From the NCBI RefSeq assembly GCF_041647995.1, contig NZ_JARRIB010000004.1:62001-126000 (forward strand): a DNA stretch of 64,000 nucleotides. Direction: 5' to 3'. Shown here piece by piece: positions 33,274-36,415 of the stretch. The stretch is from Pyrococcus kukulkanii. Its GTDB lineage: Archaea; Methanobacteriota_B; Thermococci; Thermococcales; Thermococcaceae. The stretch's first letter is position 1, and each line of letters starts with the position of its first letter. The position numbers and the translations under genes are program-made. The notes under the pieces are model-generated. The model was not told the origin of the DNA and did not search any database. It saw only the letters and a program-made list of their open reading frames with translations.

Positions 33274-34389
33274 ATGGAGAAGTATGGAGTTATATTTGGA
33301 AAAAATTATGAGCTAAGTCTAATCGAGTTAAAGGCTTTTTCAAGAAGATTTAGGTTAGGGATTAGAATTCTTGAAGAACATCCTGGATCTCCAAATGCTT
33401 CGTACGTTATAATAAAAGCCAAAAGAGACATAGAAAAGTACTTCAGATTTATTGGAGGGTCAATTAAGCTTGTTAGGATAGTCGGAGAGGGATTGGAGGC
33501 TGTAAAATACTTAGAATATGCAAGACTGTTCACGGTAAGCCTGTATGGAAGGGAGGATTGGAGGCTGTGGAGGAAGCTTGGCTCAATGGTTAAAAAAGTC
33601 TTCAAGGAAAAAGATTCGACAAAATTCTTCAAACCAGCAAAAGTCTATGCCATGCCAAGTGAGCTCATACTAAAGGGCTTTCCGGAAACTAAAGACGTAG
33701 TATTCTTTTTTGGAAACGGTGAAGTGCTCGTTGGCGAAACCGTTAAAATTACTAATCCCTTTGAGCTGAAGAAACTTGACGTTGAGAAGCCTGTTGTAAG
33801 GCCTACGATCTCTATCCCTCCAAGGCTTGCGAGAATAATGGTCAACCTCTCCGAGGTCAGGAGGGGAAATGTTCTTGATCCTTTCTGTGGAACTGGGACT
33901 ATAATAATGGAGCTCCTTCTGCAGGGGCTGACAGCCTACGGTAGTGATATCAGCGAGGAGAGGATCAGGGATACAGGGAGAAATGTTGATTGGCTTAGGA
34001 AGGAGTTTAGAGTAAAGCATTCGGCAAGCTTGAGGGTATGTGATGTAAGGAGGTTAAAGAAGTGCTTTAGGACAAGGTTTGATGCGATAATTACCGAGCC
34101 CTACATGGGTAAAGCTCTGAAGACGAAACCAACAAGGAGCGAAGCTACAAAGATAGCTAGAGAGCTTGACAGGCTCTATTATCAGGCCTTCGAGAGCTTT
34201 GCTGATGTTCTAAAGAGAAATGCTAGAGTCATTTTTGTATTTCCAGCATTCAATTTGGCTGAGGGAGGAATATATAGGAGGAACAGACCTTGGCTTGATG
34301 AGCTCGGATTTGAGGTTATAGCTTCCGTTTTGGATAGAGATGGAAAGCATAAGATAGTGAGGGATATCCACGTAATAAGAAAAAAGTAA
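33274..34389 (+). CDS. SAM-dependent RNA methyltransferase (Trm11/TrmG10-like, COG1041)
   Basis: 371 residues. The N-terminal 170 residues are a THUMP-like RNA-binding part; the C-terminal Rossmann domain has SAM motif I NVLDPFCGTGTIIMELLLQG, motif II YGSDISEERI, and motif IV TEPYMGK in place of the usual (D/N)PPY. The IRKK end is natural. The family methylates N2 of tRNA guanosines such as G10. The TEPY catalytic motif differs from TrmG10, so the exact base is open. ATG follows GGGAGATAT. Confidence 0.75.
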   Translation: MEKYGVIFGKNYELSLIELKAFSRRFRLGIRILEEHPGSPNASYVIIKAKRDIEKYFRFIGGSIKLVRIVGEGLEAVKYLEYARLFTVSLYGREDWRLWRKLGSMVKKVFKEKDSTKFFKPAKVYAMPSELILKGFPETKDVVFFFGNGEVLVGETVKITNPFELKKLDVEKPVVRPTISIPPRLARIMVNLSEVRRGNVLDPFCGTGTIIMELLLQGLTAYGSDISEERIRDTGRNVDWLRKEFRVKHSASLRVCDVRRLKKCFRTRFDAIITEPYMGKALKTKPTRSEATKIARELDRLYYQAFESFADVLKRNARVIFVFPAFNLAEGGIYRRNRPWLDELGFEVIASVLDRDGKHKIVRDIHVIRKK

Positions 34390-34390
34390 T

Positions 34391-34414
34391 CAAAAAAAGG
34401 TTCCCTGTGGGAAC
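34391..34414 (-). terminator. Hairpin plus T-run ending the tnpB-relic/RNA unit
   Basis: On the minus strand GTTCCC-ACA-GGGAAC (34400-34405 with 34409-34414) is followed by seven T residues (34392-34398). It sits at the extreme 3' end of the structured GC-rich region and two bases after the convergent methyltransferase stop. Confidence 0.6.
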
Positions 34415-34745
34415 ACCCTCCACACGGTCGCCCGTGCTTCATCGGGCATGGCCAAAAGCACCTTCAAGTGAGGTGTATAAAATTTCAGCCCTAAAGGGCA
34501 AGATTCCCAGCTCACAAATGAGTGAGTGGGATAACTCTCTAAGTTAAAAGGGTCCCTACTCTCACTAATAGGGGAACCCATTTGTCCTTCCGTTTCCGCT
34601 ACCAGTTGTAGTGCAACTGGTGTGGTTGGCTTCGCGCTCCCGCTCACATTGGGGCCACCGGCCGCCTCAGGCGGGAGGTCATCAGCCTTCGGGCCGGACG
34701 GAAACGGTCCCAAAACAAAAGCACACTCAAAACCTAAAAAAATTA
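34392..34745 (-). mobile_element. 3' relic of an IS200/IS605-type tnpB gene
   Basis: The minus strand has a continuous reading frame whose last about 110 codons (from LGFECAFVLGPFPSG through GPKADDLPPEA, PTTPVALQLVAETEG and ending VFPQGTFF) read like the Pro/Ala-rich C-terminal tail of archaeal TnpB proteins, stopping at 34390. Upstream of it the catalytic DED domains and zinc ribbon are missing. GC content is far above the neighbourhood. The assignment to TnpB is from general resemblance, the overlap with structured RNA and the position of the hairpins; it needs a protein search. Confidence 0.45.
34415..34710 (-). ncRNA. GC-rich multi-hairpin RNA (candidate omega/reRNA)
   Basis: Perfect pairings nest in order: a nine-base closing stem CCGTTTCCG/CGGAAACGG (34590-34598 with 34699-34707) encloses ACCAGTTG/CAACTGGT (34601-34608 with 34614-34621), CCGCC/GGCGG with a three-base loop (34662-34674) and GCC-TTCG-GGC (34685-34694). 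A GCCCG/CGGGC hairpin (34430-34447) and the terminator lie further 3' on the minus strand. TnpB elements carry such a guide-RNA scaffold at the gene's 3' end. Which strand is transcribed is inferred from the terminator. Confidence 0.55.
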
Positions 34746-34932
34746 CGATTACAAAAACACATGAATGCAACAAAAGAAACCATCAAAAGAACAGCCTAAA
34801 ACCACTACAATATTTTCCAGCCCTTAGAATTTCAATAGGTCATCTTTGCAGCTCTATAAGTGACTTTGGACTTGCTGATCCCTTAACGGAAGCGGGACTT
34901 ATCCAAGTGACATTTATATCTCTTCCAATCCA

Positions 34933-35152
34933 TCAACTTTCTCGGGGGCAGGAAGTTTTGTAAATTTCATTGCGTGTCATTGCATTGGTGGGCTCGGCTC
35001 GGGTTTCCGTCAACGGTAGGGCGATGAAACCCTCGGTGACGAGGTTGAGTTGTTGCCGTGAATCCTCAGAATCGCCGTGATGACTGCCTTGTATCACAAC
35101 AATACAGGACGGGAGAACGGTTCCTTGGTAAATGCATAAACAGAACTCTTGA
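34933..35152 (-). mobile_element. Second tnpB-like 3' relic with GC-rich hairpins
   Basis: On the minus strand a frame ends SRQQLNLVTEGF, IALPLTETRAEPTNAM, TSCPRES, stop at 34933. The segment GFIALPLTETRA is matched by GFTTLPLTETQA in another relic on the plus strand at 40805-40855, so both derive from one protein family, probably TnpB. Hairpins include CCTCG-GTGA-CGAGG (a GNRA tetraloop, near 35030) and TGTAT/ATACA near 35090. No start, no catalytic part. Between the two relics (34746-34932) nothing coherent is seen. Confidence 0.4.
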
Positions 35153-35199
35153 ATCTTCATTGATAGCCTTAGGTAATCATTAACTGTCTCGAACTTTTA

Positions 35200-35524: not shown

Positions 35525-36415
35525 TCATTTTATTATCTCCTCCTTTATCGTCTCCGCTATCTCCCTTATTGCCTGTGATGCCTTTGACTCTGGAAATACC
35601 TCAATGAATGGCTTAAGCATCGACATGCTCTTCGGAATGGCGGAGTCGTAAGGTATCTCGCCTAAGACGGGAATTCCCTCCTCCTCTGCCCATTCCCTAA
35701 GCTTCGTGAACCCAGGATTTATGTCGGCCTTGTTTATTATCAGGTAGGCAGGCTCGTGGAAGTGTTGGACGACCTTGTAAACCCTCTGAACGTCGCTCAG
35801 CGAGGCTGGAGTTGGCTCAGCTATTAGAATTGCTACGTCGGCCCCTCCAACGCTCGCTATCACCTGACAGCCGATTCCTGCAGCTGAATCAACTATCATA
35901 TGCTCTAGGTTTTGCTCCTTCATTATCTGCTTGGCCCACTCCTTCTCCTCTGTAACCAGCTTACCGCTCTCGGGCCTTCCTACGTCAAGTTGGGCTGAGA
36001 TTATTGGGAAGCCGTACTTGGTTATAGCCCTCCTTATCACTCCAGAGCGAACCTGCTCCAGCGTTATCGTTCCTGGGACAGGGCACACTAAACCGCAAAC
36101 GTTGCAACCCTCACAGGTGAGCTCGTTAACCACATAGTTTCCTTCATCGTCAACGTAGATGCACTCGTAGGGACACCTCATCTGGCAGATTCCACAGCGG
36201 ACGCACGTTTCCGTGTTAATTCTAGCTATCTTCGCTCCTATGTGCTCTCTCTCCTCCTCCCACTCTGTTACTCCTAGGAGCAAACCCAGGTTAGGGGCCT
36301 CGGCATCTGCATCAACCGCTATTAGCCTGTACTCATCCTTGAGCAGGTAGAGTAAGGACGCTGTAACCGTGCTCTTGCCAACACCACCCTTACCGCTCGC
36401 TATAACTATCTGCAT
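35525..36415 (-). CDS. MinD-superfamily P-loop ATPase with inserted ferredoxin domain (second of pair)
   Basis: 296 residues. Deviant Walker A ASGKGGVGKSTVTA at the N-terminus, Walker B-type IVDSAAGIGC, and between them two [4Fe-4S] ferredoxin motifs CVRCGICQMRCPYEC and CEGCNVCGLVCPVPG. This is the COG1149 type, related to Mrp/NBP35 cluster carriers. It probably loads or inserts a metal-sulfur centre in an ATP-dependent way. Four bases downstream of its paralogue; both under the TTAGG-n4-CCTAA operator at 37301. Confidence 0.9.
   Translation of the reverse strand: MQIVIASGKGGVGKSTVTASLLYLLKDEYRLIAVDADAEAPNLGLLLGVTEWEEEREHIGAKIARINTETCVRCGICQMRCPYECIYVDDEGNYVVNELTCEGCNVCGLVCPVPGTITLEQVRSGVIRRAITKYGFPIISAQLDVGRPESGKLVTEEKEWAKQIMKEQNLEHMIVDSAAGIGCQVIASVGGADVAILIAEPTPASLSDVQRVYKVVQHFHEPAYLIINKADINPGFTKLREWAEEEGIPVLGEIPYDSAIPKSMSMLKPFIEVFPESKASQAIREIAETIKEEIIK

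Follow-up and report, generated by a model that had tools for sequence, protein, structure and literature searches.

Standalone omega RNAs were reportedly described for OMEGA systems in 2021. The right-end RNAs of IS607 TnpB elements, among them those of ISXfa1 (PMC10711439) and ISFba1 (PMC11061315), lie at the 3' end of tnpB, fold into stem-loops with a possible pseudoknot adjoining the guide, and take the guide itself from the flank of the element. IS607 reRNAs have three stem-loops and a pseudoknot, and in ISXfa1 the pseudoknot has been shown to matter (PMC10711439). In Pyrococcus abyssi, Phok et al. (2011; PMC3124441) detected two noncoding RNAs, sRkB and sRkC. They belong to a six-member repeat set, one copy of which marks the 3' end of a single OrfB element. 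Transcription occurs at two of these six loci, and the resulting RNAs, sRkB and sRkC, are processed, bind L7Ae, and are growth-regulated; the other four have no promoter and stay silent (PMC3124441). To the authors the repeats seemed peculiar to P. abyssi, and they drew no link to guide RNAs, their work predating the TnpB guides (PMC3124441), and our search of the literature, which took in few subscription journals, found no paper connecting sRkB or sRkC with IS607 TnpB guide RNAs.

The window, by which we mean the whole stretch of 64,000 nucleotides that was analysed and in which positions are numbered, lies on contig C4 of a 2.05-Mb, Pyrococcus-type genome (G000). Small mobile elements have accumulated in the intergenic space between a methyltransferase gene and a MinD-type ATPase gene, both named from reading the sequence:

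33274-34389, plus strand: methyltransferase gene
34392-34414, minus strand: hairpin GTTCCC-ACA-GGGAAC followed by seven T, the 3' hairpin of the HgcC-like left end of element B, adjoining the methyltransferase stop codon
about 34393-34527, plus strand: element B, a decayed IS605-type deletion derivative with a left and a right end and no tnpB, its HgcC-like left end on the minus strand
34590-34796, minus strand: element A, left to right end, classified from its sharp ends, parents, and the empty sites of its siblings as a 207-bp non-autonomous (MITE-like) IS607-family derivative
34759-34796, minus strand: left end of element A, matching the left ends at L112, L114, L116, and L123
34945-35126, plus strand: element C, a third dispersed element with sharp ends GGGGCAG...GAGAACGG and about ten copies in G000
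35525-36415, minus strand: MinD-type ATPase gene

An earlier note on this DNA had taken positions 34390-34745 as one GC-rich, structured, orphan RNA. The base composition is as it described, with 50-56% GC at 34400-34699 against about 37-45% in the surroundings, and the block is not a single unit. Searched against its own genome it yields two disjoint repeat sets, the first spanning 34587-34798, and it covers most of element A together with element B, two adjacent non-autonomous elements of different transposon families, with element C next door. The true left end of element A lies outside the block, at 34796, and about a dozen related copies of the block in G000 dispose of its orphan status. 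A plasmid collection searched with the block gave 0 matches. At the gathering threshold Rfam assigned no family to element A or to the block as a whole, in which the only sub-threshold match was HgcC, over element B.

Aligned copies of element A begin at GGCTGTTCT and finish at CGGAAACGG, at the same base each time; they are dispersed, with unrelated flanks on either side, and sequence searches find them in several Pyrococcus-group genomes. Neither a recombinase nor a nuclease gene is present in the 207 bp, which hold only a TnpB-tail frame. This minus-strand frame, PFPSGPKADDLPPEAAGG, aligns with LFPFSPKADEPPAEG, found C-terminally in the intact TnpBs of relatives, and the TnpB-like tail of the earlier note is thus real. 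In G004 (L065/L112) and G002 (L057/L113) the tail sequence of element A forms the 3' end of an intact tnpB, and in G004 the left-end sequence of element A stands directly upstream of that gene. L112 and L113 are tnpB-only parents. The third parent, L114 in G005, is a complete IS607 element with the order left end, serine recombinase (Resolvase PF00239 and HTH domains), tnpB, and right end; its TnpB matches NF040570 at 7e-33, above the NCBIfam cut-off for RNA-guided TnpB. Left ends like that of element A precede serine recombinase and tnpB at L114 and L123 and precede tnpB at L112 and L116, so that the element shares both ends (L114) or the left end (L123) with elements encoding an IS607 serine recombinase. 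In L112-L114 the omega RNA, or reRNA, overlaps the 3' end of tnpB and stops at the right end of the element.

Because these parents share its ends and the TnpB tail aligns, we classify element A, on sequence grounds, as an internal-deletion derivative of an IS607 transposon that has kept the left end and the right-end RNA and lost the genes. Like MITEs, it is short and multicopy, has both ends kept and the genes deleted, and has an autonomous relative in the genus. It differs from them in that one of its ends also serves as a guide RNA gene; moreover, IS607 elements lack terminal inverted repeats (PMC6188088).

G000 itself has two A-type tnpB 5' ends, at C2:3-278 and C7:51406-51678, with identities of 91% and 82% across some 92 residues. 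The one on C7 is preceded by a left end and an intact recombinase (IS607 transposase NF033518, 4.9e-62). Both starts run off their contig ends and stop at the same residue, from which we infer that the assembly broke in a repeat. The start of C1, the start of C2, and the end of C7 all fall inside tnpB genes, and the G000 assembly is therefore broken at IS607 elements. An intact tnpB with the same RNA, which the earlier note had proposed to look for elsewhere in the genome, occurs in the relatives (L112-L114); G000 offers only the truncated 5' ends, no complete A-type tnpB being readable where the genes are cut by contig ends.

The putative guide RNA of element A and its parts, all on the minus strand, are as follows:

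34590-34717: guide RNA scaffold (omega RNA or reRNA) at the right end, overlapping the former tnpB 3' end, drawn from covariation and from RNA model R1
34691-34710: stem P1 (34710-34705 with 34696-34691), with UUUCCG in the apical loop and CG, UA, GC, and UG pairs across copies
34593-34704: possible pseudoknot, pairing the P1 loop (34704-34699) with 34598-34593, just before the guide
34628-34687: stem P2, outer part 34687-34684 with 34631-34628 and inner part 34677-34672 with 34642-34637, with double changes in 8 of 10 pairs
34602-34620: stem P3, the 3' hairpin near the guide, with double changes in 3 of 7 pairs
34570-34589: predicted guide, the first 20 nt past the right end, AAGGACAAATGGGTTCCCCT, from the insertion-site flank

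The fold of this RNA is conserved. Covariation, on which the earlier note had staked its RNA, was found in all three stem-loops in an alignment (A1) of 25 copies comprising solo elements, parents, and P. abyssi loci. A model of three stem-loops and a pseudoknot leaves 95.5% of the cells of A1 paired. Changes on both sides occur in 13 pairs, as against 8.7 in shuffles, and the number of cells changed on both sides is 61, as against a shuffled mean of 21.6, with none of 500 shuffles reaching 61; sliding the pairing partners destroys the signal. Because the copies are related to one another, this signal, though strong, should not be read as a probability. P2 and P1 are the best-supported stems. 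The pseudoknot (UUUCCG with CGGAAA) is 92.6% paired and almost invariant, so covariation lends it no support; it sits where ISXfa1 has its own pseudoknot, and the fold as a whole matches that of IS607 reRNAs (PMC10711439). What sets element A apart from ISXfa1 and ISFba1 is its archaeal host and the deletion of tnpB and recombinase.

The nine-base closing stem noted earlier (CCGTTTCCG with CGGAAACGG, 34706-34698 with 34598-34590, minus strand) is present, as are the eight-base hairpin (ACCAGTTG-CACTA-CAACTGGT) and a hairpin with a CGAA loop. The closing stem uses the same complementarity as the pseudoknot, with P1 open, and it is this form rather than the pseudoknot that the minimum-energy fold of the window copy adopts (-54.9 kcal/mol; z of -2.3 against shuffles). 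In P1 the window copy carries an A-C mismatch, and P3, an 11-bp stem in the parents, is shorter in solo copies. Sequence, structure, covariation, and tnpB-bearing relatives together support the earlier proposal that a nuclease gene has gone and its RNA part has been kept as a solo omega RNA.

The minus-strand frame at 34773-34390, open for 127 amino acids, might instead encode a small protein. That frame starts with TTG, has no Pfam match at E up to 10, and crosses from element A into the unrelated element B, and in several copies it is interrupted by stops or frame-shifting deletions although the RNA pairing is kept. The Pfam result and these interruptions rule the protein out for practical purposes, and we give it almost no weight.

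The RNA model R1 was built with many copies of element A, and strong scores of its own members, such as the 139.8 bits of the window copy, therefore follow by construction. Of 81 genomes sampled from the family, 39 contain matches to the model, and many of these matches are weak. Two strong solo-RNA matches lie in another genus of the family (L180 in G070 and L182 in G050), which suggests transfer between genera.

Genome G001 carries sequences matching element A at the published coordinates of sRkB and sRkC (E about 1e-7 each), which is one reason why we take it to be P. abyssi, and R1 finds six strong loci there, three of them in the model and three not. By sequence, then, element A is another copy of the sRkB/sRkC family and not a one-off: it shares with these RNAs its sequence family and its occurrence as solo intergenic copies, and differs in its location and in a shorter P3. 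The noncoding RNAs of 2011, described before TnpB guides had been recognised, are thereby tied to IS607 TnpB guide RNAs. Two further P. abyssi RNAs, sRk48 and sRk52, were rejected as members, having no BLAST match and only weak R1 matches (8e-5 and 4e-4); they are at most distant relatives.

The sequence past the right end differs between insertions of the element A family, and the first 16 nt of the predicted guide have no second perfect match in G000, only their own flank. Joining the flanks of sibling insertions revealed empty sites in sister genomes, two of them clean and one imperfect: an insertion in G000 is empty in G004 (L143), an insertion in G004 is empty in G000 (L142), and an insertion in G002 is empty in G004, with some divergence (L151). 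The targets are all G runs (GGG to GG...GG), the exact core, a GG-type dinucleotide if insertion proceeds by exchange at matching dinucleotides, not being placeable within the run. The window copy itself yielded no empty site, its surroundings having been rearranged: in the three closest relatives different genes follow the methyltransferase, and nowhere in the genus does a relative carry, at the corresponding place, DNA that aligns to 34390-35166.

These observations bear on the idea that the RNA has been domesticated by the host for a cellular role such as L7Ae binding or the regulation of a neighbouring gene. The binding of L7Ae by sRkB and sRkC and their growth regulation in P. abyssi (PMC3124441) speak for it. 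Element A, however, is not conserved at the same locus across species: from the methyltransferase side to the MinD side, relatives contain no DNA that aligns to the block. In addition, the sites of sibling insertions are found empty in sister species, and the guide matches its own flank alone. Against this evidence, which contradicts the domesticated RNA that the earlier note had offered as one of its options, such a role appears very improbable.

Given the homology of tail and ends, the parents, the multicopy dispersal, the sibling empty sites, and the covariation, our main reading is that element A is a mobilisable, non-autonomous IS607 element whose right-end RNA, if transcribed, can load TnpB made elsewhere in the cell; we put its probability at roughly three in four. 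The truncated tnpB starts in G000, the transcription and processing of RNAs of the same set in P. abyssi, and the likeness of the fold to IS607 reRNAs also speak for it; the A-C mismatch in P1, the shorter P3 of solo copies, the transcription of only two of the six P. abyssi loci, and the lack of a complete A-type tnpB readable in G000 speak against it. The element would move when the serine recombinase of a full-length relative acts on its ends in trans. Its right end would be at once a transposon end and a TnpB guide RNA. Loading in trans is plausible because the scaffold is structurally intact and is followed by insertion-site sequence. TnpB so loaded would be guided to cleave the empty site, which would favour retention of element A.

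The main challenge comes from the view that the element is mobile junk of IS607 origin whose RNA is neither transcribed nor used, its structure surviving only through the youth of the copies and the requirement of the ends for transposition. Four of the six sibling loci in P. abyssi are promoterless and silent (PMC3124441), several copies of element A carry deletions, and the neighbouring element B is clearly decayed, all of which fit such a relic. Covariation in internal helices of the RNA, some of them far from the ends, argues against it, although it may have been inherited from the parents. We regard this view as a serious possibility that nevertheless falls somewhat short of even odds.

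The mobilisable-element reading also admits a bolder extension, in which gene-less IS607 derivatives serve as dispersed trans-acting guides that hire the TnpB of a rare full-length element and cut their own empty alleles. We advance this tentatively and think it rather doubtful. If true, parasites of the transposon would be running a retention drive. The solo guides described here, for which both filled and empty sites are available among sister species, make retention via TnpB in trans testable.

Element B has a different origin. It aligns with the solo copies L028, L029, and L033, with the left end of a tnpB element (L021), and with the right end of a tnpB element. G000 contains a family of elements of about 190 bp (L028, L029, L033, and others) that have the left and right ends of element B and no gene, and in L021/L027 a tnpB lies between the same two ends. 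The outer left-end palindrome has been lost from element B. On the minus strand it resembles HgcC (RF00062), which has been reported to overlap transposase genes or to lie antisense to them (PMC4247193), but at 23.6 bits it falls below the gathering score of 50, whereas its complete relatives in G000 score 66-111 bits; it is decayed and separate from element A. The terminator hairpin with seven T of the earlier note (34414-34392, minus strand) does exist, but belongs to element B, and by itself such a hairpin is not above chance (1 found against 1.7 expected).

The strong HgcC hits in G000 (L027-L034) correspond to the left end of a short IS605-type element, and in the tnpB-bearing copy the HgcC RNA runs antisense to the gene and away from it. 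This IS605 left-end position is a possible clue to HgcC function.

Element C is probably another IS607-type solo guide RNA, to judge from a similar left end on contig C1, where it stands ahead of a serine recombinase and of a tnpB truncated by the contig end; this likely parent is at G000:C1:3-1385 (minus strand). Elsewhere in the window, the C/D box RNA sR35 (RF01123; 26626-26682, plus strand; 70.5 bits) is the sole Rfam match at the gathering threshold.
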